39,504 bases of DNA from a virus (IMGVR_UViG_3300009001_000023:1-39504), one strand, 5' to 3'. Positions 3,001 to 37,691 are shown, counted from the first letter of the stretch. The notes: generated by a model from the sequence alone, not told the origin. Program-made: numbers and translations.

Positions 3001-5028
3001 AGTGACATATCCATGACTTGGGAGATAGATGCTGTCTTCAAATTCGTTTACAACAGTGAAGATGAAGCTGTGGTTACGACCTTCACCAAGGGCAGTCAAG
3101 TCAAGAACTGGTCCATCAAGGGACTGGCTAAGAGTGAATCGGTTAGCGTCAATTACTTCCTTGACGTAGTAAGTGGCATTGTCCTGCAGAGGAACAATTG
3201 GGTCCTGCTCGTTTGTTCGATAGCGAACAGGCTGGTTAGCCAAGAACCCATGATTAGGAATAGTAAAGCTATTTGTGTCAAGGTTAACGATGACATCGTT
3301 AAATCCTTCTGATGTTGCTGAAGAAGCAGCAGTCAGATTGACAGTCGTGTAGTCGGGGTCCGGTGTTGTGCTGAGACGGAATGAGTAGTCATCTACAACG
3401 TCGATGTAGTAAACAGAGGTCTCGTTGAGAGTTGAGACAGGAGTTCCAGTGTGGAAGTAGTTAACAGCTTTTCCAGCAAAAAGCCCGTGAGGCTCAGTCA
3501 AATGAATCTGATTGCTGTCTACATCAATAGTGATTGGGATAAAAGCGTGATATGAACTTCCGGCAGGCTCAACCTCGATGGCATTTAGGTCAGCGGCTGC
3601 ATCTTCTGGAGTTTCATGCAGAACAAATCCAAAAACAGTGGATTCAACGAGAGTTACTTCAACGGAACCCGGTTCGTCAGAACCGTTCCAAGCAACTGTT
3701 CCGATGTCTCGACCCAAGAGTTGAGAAGAACCGTTGTATGTTCCTTCCGAGGTTGCAACGTCAGTAGCAGTCGCAATAATCCACGAACCACCGCCACCAC
3801 ACCAACGAGAGCCAGAGCGGTTGTTGGTTGCTCCACCGGAGTATCCACCAGCACCACCGGGGCCACCCCAGCTCTGACCGTCAGAGCCTGCGCCACCACC
3901 GAAGCCACCTTCAGCAGAAGATGAGCCAGCGCTATACCCTCCAGCTAGACCATTGAAAAAGTTCTGACCACCGCCGCCTCGTTCGGAGTTTCCACCACTT
4001 GTGTAAAAACCACCACCAGCTCCACCAGCGGACCGACCAGAACCACCTCTACCTTCGGTTCCAAATCCAGAGTTGTAGTTCTGGGAACGACCACCTTGGT
4101 TAGTCGTCTCACCATTTCCTCGACCCGTGCCACGAGCTGAAGTGGTGTTAGAGGAGGAAGAGCCGCCACCAGCGACAAACAGGGGGATATTTCCATCTTT
4201 ACGAACTACGAACGTTCCACCAGAAGAAGCAGGCCATGTAGTGTTGTTTGGTGGCAAATCACCGACTTGACCAACAACAACAGTAATAGTTTCGCCACGG
4301 TTTAGACGAACTCGTCCCTTGACTGTGGCCCCAAGACCAGCGTTTGCTCGACCAACTCGACCAGAAGCACCTTTTACAGTGAACTCATAGATACCATCAA
4401 CTGGAACTTCCCAGTCTTGATACCCCTGAAAGTCCCCCTGAGAAAGGTACTGAGAGGCCCAGCTGGCTCCTTCATTTTCATACTCTGTACGAAGTTGTGA
4501 AATTGTTGGTCCGTAACGACCAGTGGAGCCACCAGTTGTAAATGTGTGTGTCGTGAAATTATAGGTAGAAGAGCCGCCTAGACCCGTGAGAAGGTTTTTG
4601 ACGTAGTAAACATTTCCTGATGTCAGACCAGTAATTGGCTCTGCGTCTGTAACATATTTGACAGCTTGCTGGTCTGCGTACTTGACCTGAGACAGGTTGA
4701 ACTGCTGATTGTAAACATTCGGGAAGTTGAAGGTTACTGTTCCTGCAGCAAAGTTTGTGATGTCAATATTGGCTCCTCCTTGAGTGGAAGAGAAACCAAC
4801 ACTGAAATCGTCGGAATTTAAAAAGTAAACAGTGTCAGTGTCAATGCCAACAAGGTCTCCTGTGCCCTCACGGAAAACCCAAGCGCTGTCATCGGTGACA
4901 TCTGAGGAGAGAGTGGTAGCGTCGTCACGCCCGGGGAAGTACACAAAATCTTCATCCAGATTGACATTTGTCTTCTGGAGAGTGTGCGTTCCCGCCCCAC
5001 CCACAGCAGTGATGTTCAGCAGTGCCAT
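1..5028 (-). CDS. Giant HGF/FCCH-repeat virion adhesion protein (C-terminus outside window)
   Basis: The frame is open from ATG 5028 down to base 1 with no stop, so at least 1676 residues are present and the C-terminus lies beyond the window. An AGGAG sits 10 nt before the ATG. Residues about 200-460 form a glycine-rich domain: a beta module with VDGIYEFTVKGASG and an ITVVVGQVGD strand, then a long Gly/Ser tract, as in many phage fibre proteins. From about residue 490 onward the protein is an irregular array of modules of roughly 60-90 residues. Each has an HGF or HGL turn (for example IPNHGFLANQPVRY), a TYYVKEV or FNGEWQI strand and an NTFTL strand. This resembles the repeats that annotation pipelines label E1 FCCH-like in phage baseplate and fibre proteins. 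Inferred role: tail or baseplate adhesion. It is probably transcribed with the fibre genes to its right, with an extra promoter at 5062. Confidence 0.85.
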   Translation of the reverse strand, partial: MALLNITAVGGAGTHTLQKTNVNLDEDFVYFPGRDDATTLSSDVTDDSAWVFREGTGDLVGIDTDTVYFLNSDDFSVGFSSTQGGANIDITNFAAGTVTFNFPNVYNQQFNLSQVKYADQQAVKYVTDAEPITGLTSGNVYYVKNLLTGLGGSSTYNFTTHTFTTGGSTGRYGPTISQLRTEYENEGASWASQYLSQGDFQGYQDWEVPVDGIYEFTVKGASGRVGRANAGLGATVKGRVRLNRGETITVVVGQVGDLPPNNTTWPASSGGTFVVRKDGNIPLFVAGGGSSSSNTTSARGTGRGNGETTNQGGRSQNYNSGFGTEGRGGSGRSAGGAGGGFYTSGGNSERGGGGQNFFNGLAGGYSAGSSSAEGGFGGGAGSDGQSWGGPGGAGGYSGGATNNRSGSRWCGGGGSWIIATATDVATSEGTYNGSSQLLGRDIGTVAWNGSDEPGSVEVTLVESTVFGFVLHETPEDAAADLNAIEVEPAGSSYHAFIPITIDVDSNQIHLTEPHGLFAGKAVNYFHTGTPVSTLNETSVYYIDVVDDYSFRLSTTPDPDYTTVNLTAASSATSEGFNDVIVNLDTNSFTIPNHGFLANQPVRYRTNEQDPIVPLQDNATYYVKEVIDANRFTLSQSLDGPVLDLTALGEGRNHSFIFTVVNEFEDSIYLPSHGYVTGQTVQYAKSRDYEVKRLYSGGVYKYVDIDTDGGFDGNQFLLFDNVQRPSERAAYPTLGITSFRSSGNTRYITTNANHGLSTNMFVDIQGLPATSVAINRRWNGFWRVTGVQSANEFSFTAEENFTQNATDAPEGATSRRDLDYEYFLGERRVKIRGIQSSGRNRYIYCDRPHYHDAGYLIKIEGIPDENYGGYFNGEWFMDDATWNPNSLGDIRDEYGFWFNDASAPIGEDENITFPYFQLPDDVYATVQGFARIDNIETGINGSRTRLRYRNNYADRTQAEELDVSGYVSKRGGYVESRRLDRRTRVYFNLDYNHDRLVGDRITVNSMENRFRDVFNRQFFVSQVIDADELYAQLDEPVTKGIESIRFGDDLLGYTNQWNDIFINFSEPHGWSDGGDAWFQMKDFSDQSDKLWSAECNIVNRRSEGTRRYITTDNPHRLSTNYRVRVFNFEDGQDNEDEFNGDWIVAGTSNANEFYYDVDTGTSLTTTNEAAGVVSGRIRRAYFLDDVFNTGITWRRRSGNTVRMYLDTDHRMKPGEWIRISNITGNQPEEFNGEWQITATPSNREIEWVTPNTGTIAQQNVDGTVWASRQIRAFDEPRYDFTISGRDMLSHNIIQIQTQYEHGFDAGMRVNISGMTGNNTSVFNGTYDVIAAVDDNTFTLTRPTQGNVTQFSVTNRSRTGSTCDVTLNTTHNFQVGDTVVISNMTGTNIESFNGTHTITSVPASNRIQFADPLGGDGTIGASSVTGTCQLERVPFAASSGTIRLYSYNSLGQGITGFADLVETSTDGYNGIMVTDTAIPGLNNRDTYYVQKVDDNTIRLSEDPSFVNIADIQGVGVGNHSIINKSVDYENDTITIPNHGFSLAELVEYDTGGGVAIGGLTTATPYYVIPVDGNTLKLATSVSNANNGVAIDLTTATTPTGNHTLKSLIRTPDGTYTISDVPTPTTFEVTANGSVPEIVKSFDPQFTVDLEQNVIKIPSHGFLTGTKITYSPNGGTALG

Positions 5029-5061
5029 TTGCTAGCAGCTCCTCTTTCTAGACCTTCTCTT

Positions 5062-21934: not shown

Positions 21935-23350
21935 TTAGCGAACGGTAAACACTCTTCCGCCACCACCCTGCATACCCCGATGTGAGGGGAGCCGTCTGGC
22001 TGCTGGAGATTTTGCCTTCAACTTTCCTCCAGAGAAACCTGACGGTGGTTTGATAAGCAAGGCAGTCATTGCATGGACCAAAGCGTCTACTCGGTCAGGT
22101 GAGTTCTTGGTTTCTCCCGGAATCCATGCTGTCATCTGAGACTCAAGGTCTGGAAGGTAGTTAACGTGGTGGACCCTGCTCTGCTCGTAGGCAAGAACAA
22201 CAGGCTCTGCTCGCAAAGCTTTCCCGTGTTTTGAGTGAACTTCTAAAACTTTTACATTGGGGTCAATCGCATTGATTGCGTTACGAACTAGTGCTCCACC
22301 TTGATTGACTTCGGCTACAACTGGGCAACCCCAACGTCGAGCCATCTCAACAACTTTGTTGGCCCACACCTCCGGAGAACCGTGGATAGTTGCATCCTCA
22401 AGAACCCAAGCATGTCTCTTGTAGAGGTCTCGGTCGGCGGTGGAAGCGCAAACAACGATGCCGCACTCGTCTCGTGGGTTCTCCGCAACCGATGGGTCAA
22501 CTCCGATACAACGTAGGGGTGTGCTTGGGGGGAGAATCATTTCTCTGGCTGCTTCAATCATTTCGATTGTCCAGAGAGCACCCTCAACATCGTCAAGCAT
22601 TTCACCGTAGAGTTCCTGCTGAGCAAGACGAGTCCCCTCGTACACTCCGGTGATGGCTTGCAAGTATGTGTTTGACAGGTTGCCAGCGTTATCGAGAGTC
22701 GAACCTTTGGAAATAAAAACTCGACCATCCTTCTTTGCTTCGTCAATTAGCGAATAAAGAACCGGAACTCGTTTTGGGGTCGTGGTCGCAATAATTTGTG
22801 GATTTGACCCGAGTCGAGTAGCAACTCGAAGGTTGTCCCACGAAGTCATACCTGCAGCATCGGGACTTTGCCTCCATGCTGCCAACTCGTCTGCCCATGC
22901 GTAGTGGGCCTGAATACCACGAAGACCGTCCGGTTCGTCAGCGGTAAGAAGGGTAGCGACGTTACCGTTGGGCCATGTAAGCCTTCTTTTTGATGGCTCG
23001 TAGTGGGGCTTCTCAGATGGTGGGCAAATGTTCATAACACCTGACTCACCCTCGACTACAACGTCACGAACGTCTGCTGCGGTACGGGCGACGAGAGCGA
23101 AGCGAAGTTGACCTTGAGAAGTATCTTTAGCCTTCTCTCGAATCCACTCCGCTGCGCTCCTCGTCTTGCCCGCACCACGACCGGCTAGGTATAACCAGAT
23201 ACTCCAGTCGGTGTTATCGGGGGGTCTTTGTTCGGGTCTGGCCCATGCAGACCAGTCCCAAACGAGACTGTCCATGTCTAGACCAGCAAGGACCTGCTGC
23301 TTCTCGTCCTCGGGTAAGAGGGCTATTTGTTCCATCAAACTCTTACCCAT
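21935..23350 (-). CDS. terL: Terminase large subunit
   Basis: 471 residues. The ATPase has Walker A GRGAGKT (57-63) after LYLAG, and Walker B YAWADELAAW with D154-E155. The coupling segment ATTTPKRVPVLY follows at 188-199. The RNase H-like nuclease has CIGVDPSV (D285), VVAEVNQGG (about 341-349) and a C-terminal DRVDALVHA carrying the last acidic residue. STLDNAGNLS is typical of this actinophage and marine-phage branch of terminases. It cuts concatemeric DNA and drives it into the prohead. Translation starts 14 nt after the stop of the putative small subunit. The last gene of the long leftward operon, it ends exactly against the primase stop, so the convergent transcripts must overlap or be terminated inside the genes. 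Confidence 0.95.
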   Translation of the reverse strand: MGKSLMEQIALLPEDEKQQVLAGLDMDSLVWDWSAWARPEQRPPDNTDWSIWLYLAGRGAGKTRSAAEWIREKAKDTSQGQLRFALVARTAADVRDVVVEGESGVMNICPPSEKPHYEPSKRRLTWPNGNVATLLTADEPDGLRGIQAHYAWADELAAWRQSPDAAGMTSWDNLRVATRLGSNPQIIATTTPKRVPVLYSLIDEAKKDGRVFISKGSTLDNAGNLSNTYLQAITGVYEGTRLAQQELYGEMLDDVEGALWTIEMIEAAREMILPPSTPLRCIGVDPSVAENPRDECGIVVCASTADRDLYKRHAWVLEDATIHGSPEVWANKVVEMARRWGCPVVAEVNQGGALVRNAINAIDPNVKVLEVHSKHGKALRAEPVVLAYEQSRVHHVNYLPDLESQMTAWIPGETKNSPDRVDALVHAMTALLIKPPSGFSGGKLKAKSPAARRLPSHRGMQGGGGRVFTVR

Positions 23351-29142: not shown

Positions 29143-29165
29143 TTTTTCGGGCTCCCGTTCCGTTA
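29143..29165 (-). repeat. Start-associated element, copy 1
   Basis: Minus strand TAACGGAACGGGAGCCCG followed by AAAAA and the ATG of the 40-residue gene. It begins with the stop codon of the cytidylyltransferase. GGGAG is the ribosome site. Confidence 0.8.
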
Positions 29166-29642
29166 TTTGCCTTTGATGCGCTGGACCAGTTCGGTGGTGG
29201 AGTAGGGGTGGGTTCGGGTGTTGTAGTAAATGGCAATCCCGTGCTTCTCGCACCAGTCCTTACCCGTGAAGTCCCGACCGATGTACTCCTCACCGATGAT
29301 TCGGATGTCGGGACGACGGGTCTTGAGGATGTTGAGGAGGTCCTCCTCCGTCTCGTAGACGATGATTTCGTCTACATGCTTGACCGCTGAGAGTTGAATC
29401 TGTCGCTCGACCAGAGATTGGAATGGTTTCCGCTTCTCCTTCGGGCGGTCAATGCTGGGGTCGGTCTGCAAAGCAGCGATGAGGTAGTCGCACATCGACT
29501 TTGCTTCCTCAAGCATGAGGACATGCCCTGCGTGGAGGAGGTCGAAGCACGAGGCGGTCAAACCGACCCGAGGACCTCCTCCAAGGCTCTCTAGGACATC
29601 AAAGATGTACTGGTCATCCTGTACAGGGGTTGCAGAATCCAA
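29163..29642 (-). CDS. Cytidylyltransferase-like nucleotidyltransferase (TagD/RfaE-type)
   Basis: 159 residues. The start is TTG 29642, fixed by the start-associated element directly upstream and by the shared MDS start. The nucleotidyltransferase motif HxGH is at 37-40 (SCFDLLHAGHVLMLEEAK). A basic loop (RPKEKRKPF, 66-74) and a C-terminal YSTTELVQRI (147-156) match the RxKRxPF and (I/Y)STT loops of this family. Such enzymes make CDP-glycerol, ADP-heptose or CDP-ethanolamine-like activated groups from CTP or ATP. The substrate cannot be told from the sequence. With the pyruvyltransferase-like and GH130-like genes nearby, it suggests glycan or teichoic-acid related metabolism during infection. 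Confidence 0.85.
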   Translation of the reverse strand: MDSATPVQDDQYIFDVLESLGGGPRVGLTASCFDLLHAGHVLMLEEAKSMCDYLIAALQTDPSIDRPKEKRKPFQSLVERQIQLSAVKHVDEIIVYETEEDLLNILKTRRPDIRIIGEEYIGRDFTGKDWCEKHGIAIYYNTRTHPYSTTELVQRIKGK

Positions 29643-29966: not shown

Positions 29967-29989
29967 TTTTCGGGCTCCCATTCCGTAAT
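29967..29989 (-). repeat. Start-associated element, orphan copy 3
   Basis: Minus strand TTACGGAATGGGAGCCCG followed by AAAAGTC. No start codon follows. It lies 15-40 bp upstream of the -10 box of the rightward gene at 30016. Confidence 0.7.
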
Positions 29990-30003: not shown

Positions 30004-30009
30004 TACGAT
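30004..30009 (+). promoter_or_regulatory. TACGAT -10 box, leaderless spacing
   Basis: Ends 6 nt before ATG 30016. TTCCGT lies 17 nt upstream, inside orphan element 3, as a possible weak -35. Confidence 0.6.
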
Positions 30010-30015
30010 GAAAAT

Positions 30016-30714
30016 ATGAAGATTGAGTTTTTTGAGTTCTCTGAGCTCGTGGGGGAGGAGTTTTACCCTAAGCCCGCCAAAGATGTTTTACCTGAGTGGT
30101 GGCGTTCCATGCCTTCTTATCGAGAACACGGTGAGCGTATAGAGGCCCATGGAGACGCTGCATCTACTGCTAAGCGTTGTGTGCCGATTCTTGATTCCAT
30201 GCTTACGGGCTATGTTCTGTTCTTGCCAACTGATATATCAGTAGAAGAGCATGACGGAGAAGTTTGGTTCGAGCCAGCATTCATTCCTTTCATTGACTAT
30301 CACCCCGAAGAGCAAATCGGTACCCACCCGATGTTCCCCGAAGGATGGTCTCGTGTTCCAAAGTTCCAAAACACTTTTGGAATGAGAACTCCAGAAGGTT
30401 ATTCGTGTCTATTCAAGACGCCATCGCACCATGACCTGCCCTTCACACTCTTTGATGGGGTGGTCGATACAGACACGTTTAACCTTCCAGTCGGTTTTCC
30501 GTTTGCCTTAAACGACCCCGAGTGGCGTGGGGTTATCCCCGCAGGTACTCCAATTGCTCAGGTCATCCCATTCAAGAGAGAAGTGTGGGAGCACACAACC
30601 GTGGGCGACTACGAGACCACCGGAACAATGGCTTTTGAGCAAATGGGCACTCTTCGTTCCCAGATGAAGAATGGTTACAGGAACCACTTCTGGAATAGAA
30701 AGAACTTTAGCTAG
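30016..30714 (+). CDS. Conserved phage protein of unknown function
   Basis: 232 residues. The ATG has no Shine-Dalgarno, and a -10 box ends 6 nt before it, so the mRNA is probably leaderless. The sequence VLPEWWRSMPSY, KRCVPILDSMLTGYVLFLP, TPEGYSCLFKTP, GVVDTDTFNLPVGFPF and GTPIAQVIPFKREVWEH matches a family I have seen in cyanophages and other aquatic phages without known function. The Asp/His/Asp-rich beta blocks suggest a cupin-like or enzyme fold, but no catalytic motif is certain. Its 3' end overlaps the small leftward gene by 8 bp. Confidence 0.75.
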   Translation: MKIEFFEFSELVGEEFYPKPAKDVLPEWWRSMPSYREHGERIEAHGDAASTAKRCVPILDSMLTGYVLFLPTDISVEEHDGEVWFEPAFIPFIDYHPEEQIGTHPMFPEGWSRVPKFQNTFGMRTPEGYSCLFKTPSHHDLPFTLFDGVVDTDTFNLPVGFPFALNDPEWRGVIPAGTPIAQVIPFKREVWEHTTVGDYETTGTMAFEQMGTLRSQMKNGYRNHFWNRKNFS

Positions 30715-30853
30715 AAAAAAGCTTTTGGTGTTCGTTTCTAGTGTTCAAGTATGAGATTGCGTCTCTGATTGCCTTGGCTTTGATGGGGTGACCTTCTGAT
30801 TCGTGAATCAGCGCCAGCATCTCCAAATCAATAATAATGTCCTGAAATGTCAT
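30707..30853 (-). CDS. Small hypothetical protein (48 aa)
   Basis: Starts MTFQDIIIDLEMLALIHESE at ATG 30853, directly behind start-associated element copy 4, and ends overlapping the stop of the rightward gene by 8 bp. It is helical with an acidic first half and basic second half (GHPIKAKAIRDAISYL). The element in front gives good support for translation. The promoter for this gene is not obvious. Confidence 0.7.
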   Translation of the reverse strand: MTFQDIIIDLEMLALIHESEGHPIKAKAIRDAISYLNTRNEHQKLFSS

Positions 30854-30876
30854 TTTTCGGGCTCACTTTCCGTTCT
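30854..30876 (-). repeat. Start-associated element, copy 4
   Basis: Minus strand AACGGAAAGTGAGCCCG then AAAA and the ATG of the 48-residue gene. One core base differs (GTGAGCCC instead of GGGAGCCC). Confidence 0.75.
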
Positions 30877-30899
30877 TAGACAAAATCCTAGTCGTGTAA

Positions 30900-30905
30900 T
30901 AGAGT
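30900..30905 (+). promoter_or_regulatory. TAGAGT -10 box, leaderless spacing
   Basis: Ends 7 nt before ATG 30913. A TGTAAT also lies 5 nt further upstream. No Shine-Dalgarno is present. Confidence 0.45.
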
Positions 30906-30912
30906 TTGCGCA

Positions 30913-31113
30913 ATGACTAGAAAGTTTGGTTGGTGTCTAGACGGACACGACGAAGGCTGTCGGGTCCACTACCGCAACTGGGACGACACCATCGTTGAGT
31001 GTGGGTGCGAGTGCCACGTTGGCAAGCCCAAACCTCCGTTACCGGACTGGAAAGTTGCAGCACCGGCAGACGTACAACCCAAGGTATTGAAACGGCGCAA
31101 GAAAAAGAACTAA
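30913..31113 (+). CDS. Small Cys/His-rich protein
   Basis: 66 residues. Cysteines and histidines fall in a cluster: C8, H12, C16, H19, and then CGCECH near residues 30-35. This suggests a metal-binding module of about 30 residues. The tail is Pro-rich and then very basic (VLKRRKKKN), which suggests nucleic-acid binding. It probably starts a leaderless transcript shared with the next gene, which follows 9 nt later. Family not recognised. Confidence 0.7.
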   Translation: MTRKFGWCLDGHDEGCRVHYRNWDDTIVECGCECHVGKPKPPLPDWKVAAPADVQPKVLKRRKKKN

Positions 31114-31116
31114 CAT
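31111..31116 (+). promoter_or_regulatory. TAACAT -10 box, leaderless spacing
   Basis: Ends 6 nt before ATG 31123. The box overlaps the stop codon of the preceding gene, so this gene may have its own start inside the pair. Confidence 0.5.
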
Positions 31117-31122
31117 GGTTGC

Positions 31123-31305
31123 ATGATTGAAGGTACGGACCTCAAGGCCGAGCAACACCGCAGGTATCTGCGAACTGCGCTTCGACAGACCGAAGAGAAC
31201 ATCAATGGTTTGAAGGGTCAGCTCAAGTTGCTTGAGGATTACAGACTTTGGTTGGCGAACGAATTGGAAATTACTGAGCAAGCAGCCAAAGACATCGAAA
31301 CCTGA
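31123..31305 (+). CDS. Small coiled-coil protein
   Basis: 60 residues, almost fully helical with heptad-like leucines (ALRQTEENINGLKGQLKLLE, then YRLWLANELEI). There is no Shine-Dalgarno. The stop runs straight into orphan start-associated element 5. No function recognised. Confidence 0.65.
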   Translation: MIEGTDLKAEQHRRYLRTALRQTEENINGLKGQLKLLEDYRLWLANELEITEQAAKDIET

Positions 31306-31326
31306 TTTTTCGGGCTCCCATTCCGC
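31306..31326 (-). repeat. Start-associated element, orphan copy 5
   Basis: Minus strand GCGGAATGGGAGCCCG followed by AAAAATC; no start codon follows. It directly abuts the stop of the rightward gene and lies 24-44 bp upstream of the next TATAAT. Confidence 0.7.
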
Positions 31327-31349
31327 TAAAAGCCTTATTCGAGGCGGAC

Positions 31350-31355
31350 TATAAT
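31350..31355 (+). promoter_or_regulatory. TATAAT -10 box, leaderless spacing
   Basis: Perfect -10 ending 6 nt before ATG 31362. A GGAG overlaps the gap but would be too close to the start to be the main signal. No -35 is visible. Confidence 0.6.
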
Positions 31356-31361
31356 GGAGTG

Positions 31362-31862
31362 ATGGATACCGAGGATATTCGGATTGTCCCCCAGAGGTTT
31401 GAGGACTTCATGTGGGGATTTTCCATAATGGGCCGAAAGCCGAAGTCTGCCTTTGAGTGGGCTCAATCCTCGGTAGCAATAACTAAATATGTAATGGACC
31501 ATATGGAGCCCTTGTTCCAAAGGCCAGTTTTCTTTGCTTTGCTCGATGACCCCTTAAATACTCAAAAACAAGCGGAAGTTGAGATTCCGCTTATTCGCAA
31601 AGAACCTGAAAAAGTTACAAAAGACTCGTTCGGGCTCTTTTCACTGGGTGGGGGTGTATTGCACGTTGAGCAACACGCAACAGTTGCTGCCATTCTGATT
31701 CCCGGGGCTCCTCAGATTGGGATAGGCCACTCAGGGTCTGTTGTGCACGTTAGTCCTGACGGGGAAATCTACAAGATGATTTCAGACGAAAATTTGAGTC
31801 TTACCGTTGACCCAGATATCGCCGTGCTATCAACAGTGCTACTGGATGACACTTTTTCCTAA
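31362..31862 (+). CDS. Hypothetical protein
   Basis: 166 residues from ATG 31362 (a GTG one codon earlier is less likely given the spacing rule). It is a mixed alpha/beta globular protein without recognised motifs. Notable segments are FEDFMWGFSIMGRKPKSAFE, a Gly-rich turn (LFSLGGGVLHVEQHATVAA) and PGAPQIGIGHSGSVVHVSPD. No membrane segments. Family not recognised. It is followed by the pyruvyltransferase-like gene with its own leaderless start. Confidence 0.6.
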   Translation: MDTEDIRIVPQRFEDFMWGFSIMGRKPKSAFEWAQSSVAITKYVMDHMEPLFQRPVFFALLDDPLNTQKQAEVEIPLIRKEPEKVTKDSFGLFSLGGGVLHVEQHATVAAILIPGAPQIGIGHSGSVVHVSPDGEIYKMISDENLSLTVDPDIAVLSTVLLDDTFS

Positions 31863-31892
31863 TCCTTCCCCCAGCAGCCAAAACAGAAACGG

Positions 31893-31898
31893 TAATCT
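31893..31898 (+). promoter_or_regulatory. TAATCT -10 box, leaderless spacing
   Basis: Ends 6 nt before GTG 31905. No Shine-Dalgarno is present. Confidence 0.5.
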
Positions 31899-31904
31899 AA
31901 GTCA

Positions 31905-32636
31905 GTGATTCACGAATGGAAGATGGACGGGGTTACCCGTAATTTCGGAGACGCCCTCTATGAAGTCCTACTTCCAGAGGGGGTCTATAAAGACTTTGCC
32001 GAAGACACGGAGCACCTGTATTTCCCCATCGGTAGCGTGATTTCTACAAGGCACATCATCGCTGCTCTCGCTCAAGACCTGACTCCGGTGTTCATCAACT
32101 GTGGTTGGCGTGGCGAGATGATTCAGCCGGACCTCATCCAACAAAGCAAATTTATTGGTTGTCGGGGGCCTTACACGCAGAAAGAGCTCGCTCGACACGG
32201 AGTCGAAGTTGAGGTGACGCACGACCCGGCGTACCAACTTCCCGAGTTTGTTCCGAAGGGTGCCCCGAACGCCCTTGCCATCGTGGTCCGTCACATCTCA
32301 GACCCGTCGGACTACAACCAGCAATCAATCTTTGAACTCAAAGCAGACGCTGTTTTCTCACCTGTAGTCGAGACAAAAGAAGACATTATTGAGTTTGTCC
32401 AGAAGATTTCCGGCGCTCGCTTTGTATTGGCAGGCTCAATGCACGCTGCGATTGTGGCGCACGCCTATGGGGTGCCTTTTGCCCCTCTCAGGGCAGATGA
32501 CGACTACATCGACTGTATGCCGAAGTGGTTTGATTGGATGGCTGCAGAGGGTCTAGGAAAGCCAAAATTCTGTAAGGATGTAGTCGAAGGCCGAGAATGG
32601 TATCGGTCCCTCTCGAAGGAGACGAACGATGAGTGA
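31905..32636 (+). CDS. Polysaccharide pyruvyltransferase-like protein
   Basis: 243 residues from GTG 31905. It has the order of the CsaB/WcaK/ExoV pyruvyltransferase family: an N-terminal NFGDALYEVL (13-22), the central GCRGPYTQKELARHG (85-99), a DPAYQLPEF segment, and a C-terminal AGSMHAAIVAHAYGVPFAPL (about 174-193), in which S-x-H-x-x-x-x-x-x-x-x-G-V-P is the family signature. These enzymes transfer a pyruvyl ketal from phosphoenolpyruvate to cell-surface sugars. In a phage it could alter the host wall polymer and so block re-adsorption, but other uses of this glycosyltransferase-like fold are possible. It ends overlapping the next ORF by 8 bp (ATGAGTGA). Confidence 0.8.
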   Translation: MIHEWKMDGVTRNFGDALYEVLLPEGVYKDFAEDTEHLYFPIGSVISTRHIIAALAQDLTPVFINCGWRGEMIQPDLIQQSKFIGCRGPYTQKELARHGVEVEVTHDPAYQLPEFVPKGAPNALAIVVRHISDPSDYNQQSIFELKADAVFSPVVETKEDIIEFVQKISGARFVLAGSMHAAIVAHAYGVPFAPLRADDDYIDCMPKWFDWMAAEGLGKPKFCKDVVEGREWYRSLSKETNDE

Positions 32637-32868
32637 TTTAGACGAACGACCGCTGTGGACCGGTCAAATTATGGGGAAGTACAACATTGTGGTGCTGCCC
32701 ATTGGAGAGGCCGTGTTTACGGCAAATCTGATGATTTACAACCTAGATGACGAAGTTGTCTATCAAAAAGAGGTTCCAGCTAACCGAAACCTGCCCGAAG
32801 GAGCAAGTCAGAGGGAGTACGCCCAGTGGCAGAAGGTTGTCACCGACTGGGTGCTGAACAAGTCGTAA
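32629..32868 (+). CDS. Small hypothetical protein
   Basis: 79 residues, ATG within the end of the pyruvyltransferase gene, with GGAG in front, so coupled to it. The sequence is beta-rich (GKYNIVVLPIGEAVFTANLM) followed by a helix with Trp (YAQWQKVVTDWVLNKS). Its stop abuts the stop of the opposite-strand gene (TAATTA). No function recognised. Confidence 0.65.
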   Translation: MSDLDERPLWTGQIMGKYNIVVLPIGEAVFTANLMIYNLDDEVVYQKEVPANRNLPEGASQREYAQWQKVVTDWVLNKS

Positions 32869-33060
32869 TTATCGCCATCTGCCGAAGATGGCTCGCATGG
32901 CTTCCTTCGGGGACATCTTGTGTCTCCTGCCGTACCGCTCTTCTTGGTAGGCAAGCTCCTTGAGGATGCGTCTGCGCTCATCCCACTTGCCCCTCTGATA
33001 CGCACGCTCCAACTTCTCTTGGTTGGACATCATCGTTGAGAACTCCCTGTCAAAATCCAT
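32869..33060 (-). CDS. Small basic helical protein
   Basis: 63 residues, starts MDFDREFSTMMSNQEKLERA behind start-associated element 6, which abuts the stop of the gene upstream. It is highly charged and helical (KWDERRRILKELAYQEERYG), and ends KEAMRAIFGRWR. Probably a small nucleic-acid or protein-binding factor; no family recognised. Confidence 0.7.
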   Translation of the reverse strand: MDFDREFSTMMSNQEKLERAYQRGKWDERRRILKELAYQEERYGRRHKMSPKEAMRAIFGRWR

Positions 33061-33085
33061 TTTTCCGGGCTCCCACTCCGTTCTA
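33061..33085 (-). repeat. Start-associated element, copy 6
   Basis: Minus strand TAGAACGGAGTGGGAGCCCG, then GAAAAATGGATTTT. It begins with the upstream stop (TAG) and ends at the ATG. Confidence 0.8.
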
Positions 33086-33340
33086 AGACGAAGGCTCCGT
33101 GGGCATGGGGTTGTGGGGGAAGTTGGTCAGGTCGTCGGCAACTAGTTGGGTGAGGATGCCAAGGGGAACCTTGTCACCTGCTCGGTCGTGTGCTGCGATG
33201 TGGTCCAGCATCTCCTGCGTGGACTCTGGGTGGAACACGGTTTCGATAAGGTCACCAAACTTGCACATGTAGCAACCAAGCTTGCCCTGCGTGTTGCGCA
33301 TGACGTATACGTCATATTCCGGCATCTTCGAGTAAATCAC
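33083..33340 (-). CDS. Small hypothetical protein
   Basis: 85 residues from GTG 33340, chosen because GGAGG lies 5 nt upstream. An in-frame GTG at 33379 exists but has its AGGAG only 2 nt away. The two starts are linked by an in-frame 13-bp duplication (33329-33341 and 33368-33380), so the longer form would repeat the residues VIYS. The protein (YDVYVMRNTQGKLGCYMCKF, with CxxC, then HPESTQEMLDHIAAHDRAGD) has a possible zinc-binding set of Cys and His. It is the first gene of a leftward pair. Function unknown. Confidence 0.6.
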   Translation of the reverse strand: MIYSKMPEYDVYVMRNTQGKLGCYMCKFGDLIETVFHPESTQEMLDHIAAHDRAGDKVPLGILTQLVADDLTNFPHNPMPTEPSS

Positions 33341-33410
33341 TAGGTCCTCCGTCTCTTTTGCCAGCAGCGAGTAAATCACTGCTCCTCATACTAGGCATTC
33401 TCTTGCGTAT

Positions 33411-33416
33411 TAGCCT
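33411..33416 (+). promoter_or_regulatory. TAGCCT -10 box, near-leaderless spacing
   Basis: Ends 5 nt before ATG 33422, in the short divergent gap 33341-33421. This is the weakest member of the series. Confidence 0.35.
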
Positions 33417-33421
33417 AGGTT

Positions 33422-33718
33422 ATGCGTAATATTGATTCTATGACGGATGACGTAAAAAAGCTAGGAGTCAAGTTCGCTCTTGAGGACCCCCAGTGGGGTG
33501 TCGAGCTACAGCAGGGCCTTGAGGAATACATGATGACTCTTTACGAGTCAATAGACGCTGACCTAGATAGCCCCGAGGCAGACGTTGAGACAGAAAGTGG
33601 TCAGCCGTTCTGCGCCTGCAACGTGTGTGAGGGAAGGGAGATTCTTTCCTACGTTGTCCCTAGGGCCATCGTTGGATACCTAGAGGGCAAGGTCACTCTT
33701 GATGGATACCCCGACTAG
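33422..33718 (+). CDS. Small hypothetical protein with CxCxxC
   Basis: 98 residues, acidic helical first half (WGVELQQGLEEYMMTLYESI) and a CACNVCEGRE segment (about residues 63-73) that could bind a metal. A later ATG is also possible (MTDDVKKLG). The end overlaps the opposite-strand gene by 4 bp. No family recognised. Confidence 0.6.
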   Translation: MRNIDSMTDDVKKLGVKFALEDPQWGVELQQGLEEYMMTLYESIDADLDSPEADVETESGQPFCACNVCEGREILSYVVPRAIVGYLEGKVTLDGYPD

Positions 33719-34083
33719 TCGTCATCCATATTTCTTCTAACAACCAAAGACTGCAAGAAGTTGAGATGTTCCTCGGTGAGGTCTCCTTCGTAGTTCTTTA
33801 GATTGCTGTAGTTGTCCGGTGTGATAGTGACCGTCATGTCTTCATCTGTGAAGTTGAGACTGATGAGGCCAAGCTGCCATAGCTCGTTAGCGGTGTTGTT
33901 CACTTCTGACTGATGCATGGCATACAGCTCTGGAAAGACATCCTTGCACTTCTCGGTGAATCGAAAAACCGGGTCTCCCTGATGGTCATAGCCCATAATT
34001 TCGAGGGCTCCGGTATTAATCAGAATCTCGAATATCTCTTCTGAGCGCCCGTCGTCGTCAAAGTCATCCGGCTCGAAATCCAC
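33715..34083 (-). CDS. Acidic hypothetical protein
   Basis: 122 residues from GTG 34083, fixed by start-associated element 7 directly upstream (VDFEPDD). A longer upstream reading belongs to the preceding gene in another frame. The sequence (EEIFEILINTGALEIMGYDH, then DPVFRFTEKCKDVFPEL, then LWQLGLISLNFTDEDMTVTI) looks like a winged-helix-type small domain and resembles unnamed proteins in aquatic phages. Function unknown. Confidence 0.65.
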   Translation of the reverse strand: MDFEPDDFDDDGRSEEIFEILINTGALEIMGYDHQGDPVFRFTEKCKDVFPELYAMHQSEVNNTANELWQLGLISLNFTDEDMTVTITPDNYSNLKNYEGDLTEEHLNFLQSLVVRRNMDDD

Positions 34084-34102
34084 TTTTTCGGGCTCCCACT
34101 CA
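34084..34102 (-). repeat. Start-associated element, copy 7
   Basis: Minus strand TGAGTGGGAGCCCG, then AAAAAGTGGATTTC. It begins at the stop of the upstream gene (TGA) and ends at the GTG start. Confidence 0.8.
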
Positions 34103-34366
34103 GTCATCATCCTCATCGTCGTCGCCGTCATCTGCGGTGAAGACAATGGTTTCGGCGTTGGCTTGGTCAATCAACATGGCGACTAAACGTAGAGCTTGAT
34201 GTTCGAGGAAGCCAGCTCGCATGAAAGAAAGGAACAACTCGTGCATCTGCACGGCGTCCTCATCCATCGGACTTGCGCCTAAGGCATCTTCAAAAGCCTG
34301 TTCGTCAAACTCAAGTTTGTCTGACTTCGAGGACTCTTGTTCTTCCTCGCTAGCTTCTTCATTCAT
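34100..34366 (-). CDS. Acidic hypothetical protein
   Basis: 88 residues. The central part (MHELFLSFMRAGFLEHQALR, then LVAMLIDQANAE) is a helix pair; both ends are Asp/Glu-rich, ending DDDEDDD. There is no Shine-Dalgarno and a TAGACT box ends 6 nt before the ATG. First gene of a two-gene leftward unit, in tandem with the acidic 122-residue gene. Possibly a DNA-mimic or protein partner; this is only a guess from its charge. Confidence 0.65.
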   Translation of the reverse strand: MNEEASEEEQESSKSDKLEFDEQAFEDALGASPMDEDAVQMHELFLSFMRAGFLEHQALRLVAMLIDQANAETIVFTADDGDDDEDDD

Positions 34367-34372
34367 AGGAAA

Positions 34373-34378
34373 AGTCTA
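34373..34378 (-). promoter_or_regulatory. TAGACT -10 box, leaderless spacing
   Basis: Ends 6 nt before ATG 34366. The same hexamer at the same distance serves the gene starting at 36713. Confidence 0.55.
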
Positions 34379-34395
34379 GATGGTGGCAGCAGGTT

Positions 34396-35631
34396 CTATA
34401 GAAGGTCGGTCCAACTCAAAGAACCGATTCCCGACTGCGTTCCCCCTAATGAGCGCAGTGCGAGGGTCAAAGTGTCGCTCACAGGAGTGCTCGAATTAGT
34501 GCGCCCAAGTTGCAAATCGAAGCGAGCGAGGTTGCCGTTTCCAACGTCGATAGATGCAGAAGCTTGGTTGGAAGAGTTGATGAATCCTTCAGCAACAACA
34601 GTTCCACCTGTCATGGCGGTAGCAGAGATGTTGTATTGGATATTGCCCGTGGAGGGAGCATGGGTTACCCAAGTGCCTTCCGTAAGGGTTGCGTTGCGAA
34701 TAAGAGCCCACTGGTAGTTGCCCTGAGCGACAGGGAGAATCTCAGCGGAGGAGGGGAGGATGATGGAGTCCGTTCGACCCTCTGTCATCCGAATTGAAAC
34801 TAGGGGGTAGAAATCAGAGCCGACGTTTACCGTTGCTGTTCGAGCAGCGGTCCACGACTCGGTGATGCGCTCGTAGCCACCATTGACAATGACCGAGGCA
34901 CAAATCTGCCCGAGGGACGAAGCGCTCTCAGTCGCAACAAGGTTTTCAATCTCGTAGCGAATCGGAAGAGAAGCAGTTGTGATGTAGGTGGAAGTGATGT
35001 GGTTTGCGTGGTTGAACTGGTGCGCCATGATGAAGTTTCCGTCGATGGCAAACCCAAGACGTACAGAACCAGCACCTAGCCACTCGTACTCGGAGAAGAA
35101 GATTTGGGTCTTGGAAAGGTCAAGAACTACGTCACTTGGACCGTTGCCGTCGAGGGTGTCCATGTTCCATTCGGACTGGGGGACACGAATCTCCACGACT
35201 GAACCGCTGACATAACTTCTGGACACGAGGTAGACATCGGTTCCGCTTCGCTCAAGGAAGTAGCCGTTCTGCCGTGAGAAGTACCCCGCTCTGTGGCGGA
35301 GCCCCGCCTTAGCAGGACCAAACACGAAGGTCTGCATGACCTGCAGAGACTTACCGGGTTGGTAGAGAAAGACTCTCTTGGACTCCCGGGTCATCTTGTC
35401 GCCAGCGTTGGCACCGACGGTGAGGGTGTCCATGCTCGCATTGGGGAGGTAGACAGATGAAGCAGTTCCTGTGGTCTCGTCTGACCAGTCACCTGCCACC
35501 TTGTATCGGTGTTGAGAATCGAAGATGGTGTAGGGCTCAGCGATTTTGACCCGACCGAACATGTCAGTGCGAAACAGGTTCGCTTGGTCCCGAGATGGTT
35601 TCGAGACATTGTTCCTAGGGTTGTCGGTCAT
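34396..35631 (-). CDS. Virion structural protein
   Basis: 411 residues from ATG 35631; the region before it in frame is a spurious extension with no start signal. The order VFLYQPGKSLQVMQTFVFGP, HRAGYFSRQNGYFLERSGTD, WNMDTLDGNGPSDVVLDLSK, EYEWLGAGSVRLGFAIDG and HQFNHANHITSTYITTASLP, LPIRYEIENL matches a conserved virion structural protein I recognise from cyanophages and pelagiphages, probably a concanavalin-like beta-sandwich. The remaining C-terminal 170 residues (VSIRMTEGRTDSIILPSSA) are another beta domain. It lies alone, far from the fibre cluster. A leaderless-type -10 precedes it, so it may be expressed apart from the other structural genes. Confidence 0.75.
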   Translation of the reverse strand: MTDNPRNNVSKPSRDQANLFRTDMFGRVKIAEPYTIFDSQHRYKVAGDWSDETTGTASSVYLPNASMDTLTVGANAGDKMTRESKRVFLYQPGKSLQVMQTFVFGPAKAGLRHRAGYFSRQNGYFLERSGTDVYLVSRSYVSGSVVEIRVPQSEWNMDTLDGNGPSDVVLDLSKTQIFFSEYEWLGAGSVRLGFAIDGNFIMAHQFNHANHITSTYITTASLPIRYEIENLVATESASSLGQICASVIVNGGYERITESWTAARTATVNVGSDFYPLVSIRMTEGRTDSIILPSSAEILPVAQGNYQWALIRNATLTEGTWVTHAPSTGNIQYNISATAMTGGTVVAEGFINSSNQASASIDVGNGNLARFDLQLGRTNSSTPVSDTLTLALRSLGGTQSGIGSLSWTDLL

Positions 35632-35637
35632 GCTATA

Positions 35638-35643
35638 AGTGTA
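35638..35643 (-). promoter_or_regulatory. TACACT -10 box, leaderless spacing
   Basis: Ends 6 nt before ATG 35631. It lies only 15 bp from the start of the divergent promoter at 35659. Confidence 0.5.
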
Positions 35644-35658
35644 TCTCAGAAGCTCGAT

Positions 35659-35687
35659 TTGACTTCTATAACAAACGGAGGTATGAT
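35659..35687 (+). promoter_or_regulatory. Promoter TTGACT-N17-TATGAT, leaderless spacing
   Basis: The best sigma-70-type promoter of the series. The -10 (35682-35687) ends 6 nt before ATG 35694. A GGAGG lies inside the promoter and would not be transcribed. Confidence 0.7.
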
Positions 35688-35693
35688 ACCGCC

Positions 35694-36014
35694 ATGCCAC
35701 GACGAAGAAAATCAAACAAACCACAGGAACCCCGGCCCAACGACAACTGGGTAGTCAGCGAAGACTACGAGGCCAACGGTCGAAAGATTCAGCGTGATAC
35801 TGAATTGAGTATCACCGGAGAGTCAGGCAGGTTCCGATTTATGAGACATGTTCTGAATCCCGATAGTGCCACGGAATGGATTGATGTCATCGGTGGTCCC
35901 AAGGGGTACAAGCAAGTCAGGTCCTTCCGTCCAGACCGAATCAAGCGGGTTCACTGGAAGAACAAGACCGGTGAGAACCTTGCAGCAGAACGGAAGAATG
36001 CCGCTTCTAAATAG
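35694..36014 (+). CDS. Conserved small actinophage-type protein
   Basis: 106 residues. Basic N-terminus (MPRRRKSNKPQEPRPND), then a beta-rich domain (RDTELSITGESGRFRFMRHV) and a conserved block (WIDVIGGPKGYKQVRSFRPD, then RIKRVHWKNK). This pattern, with RFRF and RSFRPxR, is frequent in small actinophage proteins of unknown function. It is probably nucleic-acid binding from the charge. It is followed by a second rightward gene 16 bp later, which has its own leaderless start. Confidence 0.7.
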   Translation: MPRRRKSNKPQEPRPNDNWVVSEDYEANGRKIQRDTELSITGESGRFRFMRHVLNPDSATEWIDVIGGPKGYKQVRSFRPDRIKRVHWKNKTGENLAAERKNAASK

Positions 36015-36018
36015 GATG

Positions 36019-36024
36019 TAGAAT
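36019..36024 (+). promoter_or_regulatory. TAGAAT -10 box, leaderless spacing
   Basis: Ends 6 nt before ATG 36031, preceded by TG. No Shine-Dalgarno is present. Confidence 0.55.
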
Positions 36025-36030
36025 AGAACC

Positions 36031-36468
36031 ATGAAATGTCTTTGTGGTTACTCTCAGATGCCGAACAACACCGCTGTTTTGGCTCGGCACATGCAGGATT
36101 GCATGACATCCGGACCGCTCAAGGGGCTCGTACCAGACCCCTGTGTCGTCTGGCGTGATGGGGAATTTCACGTTGTAAAACAGCCCGAAGAGGGCGAGCA
36201 CCCCATTGAAATGCAAATCGTCAGGCCACAACCTCACGTTGTTGCTGTAGAAAAGAAGGTCTACGCCGAAGCTTTGAAGTTTATGACTGTTGAAGAGGCA
36301 GCAGAGACACCAGAAGAATTCGAGCAGATTCTTGAAGAGGTTGCTGAGGGTGGAGAACTTCCCCTGCAGGAAGCTATTGAAACGCTAGAGGAAGCTCAGG
36401 CTGAGGCTGAAAAAGAAGAGCCAAAGCCTGCTCCAAAGAAGAGGGCACCTAAGAAGAAGACTTCTTAA
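36031..36468 (+). CDS. Zinc-finger-like protein with acidic and basic tail
   Basis: 145 residues. Residues 3-24 read CLCGYSQMPNNTAVLARHMQ then DC, a C-x-C...H-x4-C arrangement typical of a small zinc finger. A beta region follows (VVWRDGEFHVVKQ). The second half is Glu/Ala-rich helix, ending with a Lys/Pro/Ala tail (PKPAPKKRAPKKKTS) similar to histone-like tails. Probably DNA binding. The 3' end overlaps the convergent gene by 4 bp. Confidence 0.65.
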   Translation: MKCLCGYSQMPNNTAVLARHMQDCMTSGPLKGLVPDPCVVWRDGEFHVVKQPEEGEHPIEMQIVRPQPHVVAVEKKVYAEALKFMTVEEAAETPEEFEQILEEVAEGGELPLQEAIETLEEAQAEAEKEEPKPAPKKRAPKKKTS

Positions 36469-36713
36469 CTTTTGTGGAGTAGCTCGGACTCGTCAATGAT
36501 GTCTTCGGCTACTTCGAACAACTTCTCTTCGTGAGAGTTGTAATGGTGGTAGCAGAGATATAGCTCTCCGCCGCCTTTGAGAATAACTTTGTAATAAGAC
36601 TGAGAACCGCACTGGTCGCAGCGTTCGGGAATTGTTACGTACTCAAGTTCTTCGTTGACTTCTTCTGGTTCTGCCTCTGTTTGGGCAGACGGATGCATCG
36701 CCTCTGCTGACAT
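36465..36713 (-). CDS. Actinobacterial-type zinc-ribbon protein
   Basis: 82 residues. The N-terminus is acidic and disordered, and the core reads RCDQCGSQSYYKVILKGGGE, then LYLCYHHYNSHEEKL. CxxC followed by a Gly-Gly-Glu-Leu strand and CxHH is the pattern of a small zinc-ribbon family widespread in actinobacteria and their phages (annotated there as DUF7455, from memory). It is the best single pointer to an actinobacterial host. TAGACT ends 6 nt before the ATG, so the mRNA is probably leaderless. Confidence 0.75.
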   Translation of the reverse strand: MSAEAMHPSAQTEAEPEEVNEELEYVTIPERCDQCGSQSYYKVILKGGGELYLCYHHYNSHEEKLFEVAEDIIDESELLHKS

Positions 36714-36719
36714 AAAAGA

Positions 36720-36725
36720 AGTCTA
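36720..36725 (-). promoter_or_regulatory. TAGACT -10 box, leaderless spacing
   Basis: Ends 6 nt before ATG 36713 and overlaps the 3' end of the GH130-like gene. Confidence 0.55.
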
Positions 36726-37691
36726 GTATTCGACCGTCTTGAGTGACTTGAGCACCGTGTCCATCGGGATGCGAGCCACATGGCAAGAGACATCGTTCTT
36801 CCCGAAGGAGATGAGGAAGTCCTTCTTCTGAGCGACCAGTCCGCAGGCAAACTCGATGCCGGGGGAGTGAAACTTGAAGCCCTCAGACATGGACATGATG
36901 TAGCCCTCGTTGTTGAATCTAACGAAGTAATGAACGTAATCACGAGTAGTTGTCGAGATAGTGCCAAAACTTTCGGCTACATATCTATTGTCTGTCTTGG
37001 TGAAGGTTCGATGCATGACACCAAGGTAAGTCTCGTCTCCTAGGGAATGAAGATTGGTGTTGCCTCGGAGCATGGCTGTCTCGGGGGCGTCGGTCATCCA
37101 TCCATAAAGTGTTCCGTCTTTGACCACCTGATTGGGCCCATAGATGAAGTCAAAGTTGTCATTGGTCTCGTAAGGGAGCATCCAGTTCTTTTCGGGGACG
37201 AGAGCGTCAAGACCGGGAAATAGTTCGAAGTCAACAACCTTTGTGCACTTTGAGTCAAGCTTTGCGATAGCCATGCGAGCCCTTTCGACTTGGTTCTTTT
37301 CTAGAACAACACAAGTGAAATGCCAAGCTCCGTCTCGGTAGAAGAGACGAGCATCCTCTACACCACGTTTGAAGTCGTACTCTTCTACTTCAGAGAAGTC
37401 AATCTCACGAAGCTTCTTGGGCTTAAAGTCGTTATCTAGTTCTGAGAAGTAGAGCTTGCTCTGGAAGTCGGTGGCACCGTTTACGATGCGATACAAACCT
37501 CGGGAGTCGTAGATGAAGTTGCTAGAACGGAACGTGGCGACGTAGCCCTTCTTGGGCCAATAGCCGATGGACATGTTGAAGCATGACCAATGCTTGTCTG
37601 TCTCATAGACAACTTCGTCTTTGATAAATCTGCGAACGTCAACAACAGACCCGCCGAGTTGGCGAATTGTTGGGTACTCTTCCGGGTTCAT
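36723..37691 (-). CDS. GH130-like five-bladed propeller enzyme
   Basis: 322 residues, ATG with GAGG 5 nt upstream. The sequence follows the order of GH130/GH43-type glycoside phosphorylase folds: FNMSIGYWPKKGYVATFRSS (38-57), GVEDARLFYRDGAWHFT (110-126, with the E-D-x-R motif carrying the acidic residue), PEKNWMLPYE (166-175), YGPNQVV, MLRGNTN (207-213) and VMHRTF (225-230). In GH130 enzymes phosphate and mannosyl-containing substrates bind here. The match is in the layout only, and substrate or activity is not established. With the cytidylyltransferase and pyruvyltransferase-like genes it may form a glycan-directed accessory set. Confidence 0.7.
   Translation of the reverse strand: MNPEEYPTIRQLGGSVVDVRRFIKDEVVYETDKHWSCFNMSIGYWPKKGYVATFRSSNFIYDSRGLYRIVNGATDFQSKLYFSELDNDFKPKKLREIDFSEVEEYDFKRGVEDARLFYRDGAWHFTCVVLEKNQVERARMAIAKLDSKCTKVVDFELFPGLDALVPEKNWMLPYETNDNFDFIYGPNQVVKDGTLYGWMTDAPETAMLRGNTNLHSLGDETYLGVMHRTFTKTDNRYVAESFGTISTTTRDYVHYFVRFNNEGYIMSMSEGFKFHSPGIEFACGLVAQKKDFLISFGKNDVSCHVARIPMDTVLKSLKTVEY

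Follow-up and report, generated by a model that had tools for sequence, protein, structure and literature searches.

TANNNT boxes six nucleotides before start codons point to leaderless genes in a large tailed phage of a probably actinobacterial host

The uncultured virus record IMGVR_UViG_3300009001_000023:1-39504, analysed here over all of its 39,504 nucleotides (nt) and called the window below, is a 39.5-kb stretch of a large tailed phage, which encodes a terminase, an exonuclease, a primase, ThyX, the small subunit of ribonucleotide reductase and collagen-like tail fibres. Between positions 30,004 and 36,725 it carries a series of mostly small genes with a TANNNT box just upstream of the start codon (Table 1). 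A previous sequence-only reading had listed eleven such boxes, and all eleven are present, nine of them ending exactly 6 nt before the start, one 7 nt (start 30913) and one 5 nt (start 33422). The same reading assumed that all eleven genes lead transcription units, which is not clearly the case for 31123 and 36713, since these start 9 nt after an upstream stop codon. Gene 30913 has no ortholog in our genome set and was left uncalled by the coding model. It is very probable that the boxes represent -10 elements read by the host sigma-A, with transcription beginning at the start codon and producing leaderless mRNAs.

Table 1. TANNNT boxes and the genes following them in the window. Distances are counted in nt from the box to the start; G002 and G004-G012 are labels of uncultured relatives from IMG/VR; aa, amino acids.
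Feature	Coordinates	Strand	Remarks
Box TACGAT	30004..30009	+	6 nt 5' of 30016; ortholog box at 6 in G010, at 7 in G002, G004 and G006
Putatively leaderless gene, 232 aa	30016..30714	+	phrog_7084 (function unknown)
Box TAGAGT	30900..30905	+	7 nt 5' of 30913; weakest of the eleven
Small gene, 66 aa	30913..31113	+	stop TAA (31111-31113) supplies the TA of the next box
Box TAACAT	31111..31116	+	6 nt 5' of 31123; contains the gene 30913 stop codon
Putatively leaderless gene, 60 aa	31123..31305	+	
Box TATAAT	31350..31355	+	6 nt 5' of 31362
Putatively leaderless gene, 166 aa	31362..31862	+	
Box TAATCT	31893..31898	+	6 nt 5' of GTG start 31905; ortholog box at 6 in G002, G004, G005 and G006, at 7 in G007
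Putatively leaderless gene, 243 aa	31905..32636	+	polysaccharide pyruvyl transferase family PF04230
Box TAGCCT	33411..33416	+	5 nt 5' of 33422; ortholog box at 6 in G002, G004 and G006
Putatively leaderless gene, 98 aa	33422..33718	+	
Box TAGACT	34373..34378	-	6 nt 5' of 34366; ortholog box at 6 in G002, G004, G005, G006 and G007, at 7 in G010
Putatively leaderless gene, 88 aa	34100..34366	-	
Box TACACT	35638..35643	-	6 nt 5' of 35631; ortholog box at 6 in G007, G008 and G009, at 7 in G004, G005 and G006
Putatively leaderless gene, 411 aa	34396..35631	-	virion structural protein, phrog_1645
Box TATGAT	35682..35687	+	6 nt 5' of 35694, divergent from 35631; box retained in the orthologs of G002 and G007
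Putatively leaderless gene, 106 aa	35694..36014	+	DUF7246 / phrog_1338
Box TAGAAT	36019..36024	+	6 nt 5' of 36031; ortholog box at 6 in G002, G004 and G006, at 7 in G007
Putatively leaderless gene, 145 aa	36031..36468	+	
Box TAGACT	36720..36725	-	6 nt 5' of 36713; TAG doubles as stop of gene 36723-37691
Putatively leaderless gene, 82 aa	36465..36713	-	DUF7455

The spacing is also found when the starts are not selected beforehand. A scan of every ATG or GTG start of open reading frames (ORFs) of at least 40 aa on both strands of the window (n=716) gave ten starts with TANNNT at distance 6, namely the nine mentioned above and 37016 on the minus strand, an ATG inside gene 36723-37691. In a second count, which used a gene caller blind to upstream signals and Markov resampling as null model, six of the 42 called window starts have a box at 6 nt compared to 0.6 expected, and none of 1000 null runs reached six starts at any of the distances 0-30. 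Permuted hexamers of similar composition showed no distance peak in the window.

The genome-wide distance count, which had been proposed as a check together with the original claim, was extended to relatives from IMG/VR with lengths of up to 160 kb, whose sequences were read piecewise, and to the named phages DSL-LC01, Zooman, Racecar, GodonK, phiYS40 and T4; the cultured set includes Microbacterium phage Zooman, Arthrobacter phage Racecar and Gordonia phage GodonK. All actinobacterial phages examined display a single peak at 6 nt. Related to the called genes, boxes at this distance occur in the uncultured relatives G002 (14/153), G004 (11/159), G010 (12/152), G005 (13/102), G006 (13/98), G007 (15/77), G008 (11/107) and G009 (10/58), in DSL-LC01 (9/156, with 6 more at 7 nt) and in the cultured actinophages GodonK (7/189), Zooman (55/304) and Racecar (16/281). 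The Thermus phage phiYS40, which served as positive control, has the peak as well (30/164 called genes), and no peak at 6 was detected in the negative control T4 (3/245), in G011 (4/145) and in G012 (2/31). Pooling the aquatic relatives without the window resulted in 97 starts at 6 nt, 24 at 7 nt and 4-17 at each other distance between 0 and 15; the sequences upstream of the box genes in the aquatic set are distinct in 102 of 103 cases, but some relatives share ancestry and are thus not independent. Among 58 deposited gene starts in a 20-kb stretch of Zooman, 15 have the box at 6 nt, with no box at the distances 0-5 and 7-10. In the region of 150-170 kb of Zooman (L129) a repeated cassette of the form TTGACA - about 17 base pairs (bp) - TAgGCT - 6 nt - ATG was observed 5' of 15 out of 58 same-strand genes; small membrane proteins are frequent among the products of the cassette genes.

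Further signatures distinguish the box genes from other genes. As had been stated before, most of the eleven genes lack a Shine-Dalgarno (SD) site; ten are without it, and the sole exception is 35694 with GGAGG 12 nt from the ATG. Over the phages, SD sites were found in 19% of box genes versus 63% of the others (p=1.5e-29). A pyrimidine is present at position -1 in 77% of box genes versus 31% of the others in the aquatic phages (p=1.4e-18), and in 88% versus 46% in the cultured phages. Mapped transcription starts of Mycobacterium tuberculosis prefer a purine at +1 and a pyrimidine at -1 (PMC3898074), and the match to this preference therefore places the predicted transcription start on the A of the ATG. 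The last T of the box is situated at -7, hence a sigma-A promoter would start at about the same base. The previous observation that a -35 element is mostly missing was also confirmed, as matches to TTGACA stay at the shuffled level in the aquatic group including the window; no -35 motif was found in M. tuberculosis either (PMC3898074). In Zooman, all 15 deposited box starts carry TTG at the -35 spacing and 10 of the 15 the full TTGACA, while the match to TTGACA over the 55 Zooman sites forms a sharp peak of 3.8 out of 6 at a 17-bp spacer, compared to 1.4 in other genes. Since a -35 element at standard spacing had never been a search criterion, this finding strongly supports the view that the boxes are -10 elements.

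Moreover, the box is retained in diverged orthologs (32-69% amino-acid identity). It was found at 6 nt in 21 of 45 orthologs of box genes versus 7 of 54 orthologs of control genes (p=0.0003), and several of the misses are boxes at 7 nt. Four of the seven control positives belong to a single gene, 33379 (window 33083-33379): its window copy is SD-led, whereas the orthologs in G004, G006, G007 and G010 carry the box at 6 nt, so that a gene can switch between the two modes of initiation. Divergent starts carry a box in 37% of cases, same-strand starts after a gap of at least 15 nt in 11% and tight junctions in 2.4%, the last value being little above background. Among the pooled actinophages, same-strand junctions with a gap of exactly 9 nt are overrepresented about threefold (33 versus 11 for gap 8 and 11 for gap 10), and at 21 of these 33 junctions the upstream stop codon, TAA or TAG, forms the first half of the -10 box. 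Such an overlap exists in the window at 36713 with the stop of 36723-37691 and, judged from the coordinates, at 31123 with the stop of 30913-31113. The stop codon that supplies the TA of a -10 box is a new detail.

An actinobacterium is most likely the host of the window phage, because WhiB is encoded by its relatives and the nearest terminases are those of actinophages. The WhiB family is restricted to actinobacteria and their phages (PMC10611076) and was found in G002, G004, G008, G009, G010, DSL-LC01, Zooman, GodonK and Racecar; it was not found in the window fragment, which is an incomplete genome. Among named phages, the terminase is closest to that of DSL-LC01 (80%), for which a host among the Actinomycetia has been predicted (PMC10611076), followed by Microbacterium phages (approximately 63%), Gordonia phages (approximately 49%) and Arthrobacter phages (approximately 46%). 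G011 and G012, which lack the peak at 6, have a GC content of 0.34-0.35 and no WhiB, and therefore probably infect other hosts.

The observed combination of the box, its distance and conservation, the loss of the SD site, the pyrimidine at -1 and the recurrence in actinophages would be best explained if the housekeeping sigma-A RNA polymerase of the host reads the TANNNT boxes as -10 elements. Their placement would make transcription begin with the first base of the codon at which translation starts, and ribosomes would translate from the 5'-terminal AUG or GUG without an SD site; leaderless genes should be ordinary in the likely actinobacterial host. The phage may thereby give mostly small genes a promoter of their own in almost no space, chiefly where a short or divergent unit begins, sometimes sharing the stop codon of the upstream gene with the box. 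The assumption of leaderless mRNAs is strongly supported by the sharp peak at 6 nt, the SD loss, the pyrimidine at -1 and the -35 element that cultured relatives have at about 17 bp; further support comes from the retention of the box in diverged orthologs and from the positive and negative control phages, which behaved accordingly. Nevertheless, some points weigh against this reading. Transcription start, polymerase, host and translation mode are all deduced from the DNA, and searches of bacterial and archaeal contigs, run twice with terminase and virion-protein profiles, returned neither a host nor a prophage. The boxes at 5 or 7 nt need a slightly off-spacing start or a one-base leader, the box of 36713 is lost in its orthologs and some other orthologs are boxless, too. 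Furthermore, the window group has no -35 element, so the promoter strength cannot be read from the sequence. The predicted leaderless habit is not peculiar to the window phage; it is common in large actinobacterial phages, where it can be counted.

In addition to the boxes, seven copies of another element with the consensus CGGAAYGGGAGCCCGAAAA were observed on the minus strand of the window (cores at 29154, 29654, 29977, 30864, 31317, 33072 and 34095). Five of them are located directly 5' of the starts 29142, 29642, 30853, 33060 and 34082, mostly right after the upstream stop, whereas no start follows the cores at 29977 and 31317, which are situated opposite putative leaderless promoters. The consensus is similar to GGGATAGGAGCCC, the Start-Associated Sequence (SAS) of Cluster K mycobacteriophages (PMC3203893), as well as to the Cluster EF sequence GGGAAAGGACCCC (PMC7302621). 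The SAS-like element recurs in G002, G004, G006 and G007, with variants in G010. A copy was found 24-25 nt 5' of a same-strand, putatively leaderless start and upstream of its -10 box at L031:13513 (G002), L038:105 (G004), L121:6621 (G006) and L045:1800 (G010). Copies in this position cannot serve as ribosome sites, which suggests a role at the DNA level for at least some of them.

It is conceivable, but in our view unlikely, that leaderless starts and SD-led starts, including those with a SAS-like leader, represent two parallel classes whose balance is shifted during infection, which would make the leaderless set a translational regulon. A similar shift has been suggested for phiYS40, whose infection raises IF2 and lowers IF3 (PMC3594737); an IF3_C domain was not found in the phages searched. 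We consider it very improbable that a phage sigma factor or a modified polymerase switches on all boxed genes together; the terms regulon and dedicated block of the sequence-only reading are not supported. The restriction of all window boxes to 6.7 kb (clustering p=0.026) and the missing -35 in the window group would be consistent with such a switch. However, clustering is weak (p=0.03 in DSL-LC01 and not significant elsewhere), the boxes of relatives are dispersed over the genome, and the crowding in the window probably results from the fact that the rest consists largely of long structural and replication genes according to the gene map. Moreover, the box is identical to the host-type TANNNT, and the same boxes exist together with a standard 17-bp -35 in Microbacterium, Arthrobacter and Gordonia phages. 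Upstream sequence logos revealed no shared operator, a Sigma70_r2 domain was absent from the 12 phages searched (the window genome itself being incomplete), and a search for a T7-type RNA polymerase was negative, though its control gave no signal either. Given the lack of clustering in relatives, of an operator and of a sigma factor, the dedicated regulon was rejected. Ordinary promoters with a leader of 1-5 nt, i.e. genes that are not truly leaderless, could account for the boxes at 5 and 7 nt (33422, 30913 and the 24 starts of relatives at 7), but appear very improbable in view of the four to one ratio of distance 6 to 7 and of the pyrimidine directly 5' of the A of the ATG, which is the initiator pattern expected exactly at the codon. 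Finally, TANNNT is a short motif, but functionless chance matches in AT-rich start regions are practically negligible considering the null models, the permuted motifs, the flat profiles of T4 and G011, the SD loss, the ortholog conservation and the fact that independent phages, when pooled, peak at exactly 6.

Some observations concern the genome of the window phage more generally. Two loci, 34396-35631 and 21935-23350, point to a mosaic genome: the virion protein phrog_1645 is, among named phages, nearest to those of cyanophages and Puniceispirillum phage HMO-2011 (43-47%), whereas the terminase is nearest to actinophages. The nucleotidyltransferase-like gene at 29163-29642 (phrog_7878) and the polysaccharide pyruvyl transferase gene at 31905-32636 (PF04230) suggest sugar or surface modification. 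A minus-strand frame of 1677 codons that is open at the left end (window 1-5031) explains the apparent gene desert at 1-5000 and is overlooked if ORFs are listed without open ends. It is internally repetitive, has homologs in G002, G004, G010 and DSL-LC01, and probably encodes a large virion protein.

TANNNT at 6 nt, a pyrimidine at -1 and the missing SD site represent a simple and unbiased sequence test, by which the first genes of units can be located and start codon assignments corrected in actinobacterial phages, whose small genes mostly lack a known function. With its 55 candidate leaderless genes, the cultured Zooman makes leaderless expression in phages measurable in the laboratory. A stop codon that also serves as a piece of a -10 element is a compact solution and bears on gene annotation as well as on operon models. 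The finding is useful because it is general and quantitative and because a cultured phage is available for testing it.

The sequence-only reading regarded a dedicated block of such single-gene promoters as not yet described in a phage, which is not correct as such, since leaderless mRNAs have been reported for phiYS40 and predicted for Corndog-type phages and Adephagia; a systematic account of such promoter arrays in large actinophages was not found in the open-licence papers searched. TANNNT adjoining the start is known from leaderless genes of Actinobacteria and Deinococcus-Thermus (PMC3160421, PMC3898074, PMC12340547), and leaderless TANNNT genes make up 19.2% of the genes in actinobacterial genomes on average (PMC3160421), compared to 6-19% of the called genes in the uncultured relatives studied here. 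The window genes resemble their actinobacterial counterparts in the first T 12 nt 5' of the start, the absent SD site and the dispensable -35, and differ from them in being genes of an uncultured phage with transcript starts predicted from sequence. In phiYS40, most middle and late mRNAs are leaderless (reviewed in PMC3594737). It is likewise a large phage with many leaderless genes, and its box peak at 6 nt was reproduced here; however, it infects a host of another phylum and its leaderless set is tied to middle and late expression, whereas that of the window comprises a minority of the genes. The promoters PL1, PR2 and PL2 of Corndog-type (Cluster O) mycobacteriophages (PMC4351075) and P90 of gene 90 in Adephagia (PMC11373665) were predicted to be leaderless with transcription starting at the first base of the start codon, as assumed here. 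These phages have 1-3 such promoters per genome, which are SigA-like with a -35, in contrast to the window with its roughly ten predicted promoters in 6.7 kb and no -35. Corndog was compared by its published description; the Cluster O-type -35 located about 17 bp 5' of the -10 is absent from the window group and present in Zooman. Zooman, Racecar, GodonK and DSL-LC01 share related terminases (46-80% identity) and the same peak at 6 nt with the window phage, and the three cultured phages among them, unlike the window group, have retained the 17-bp -35.

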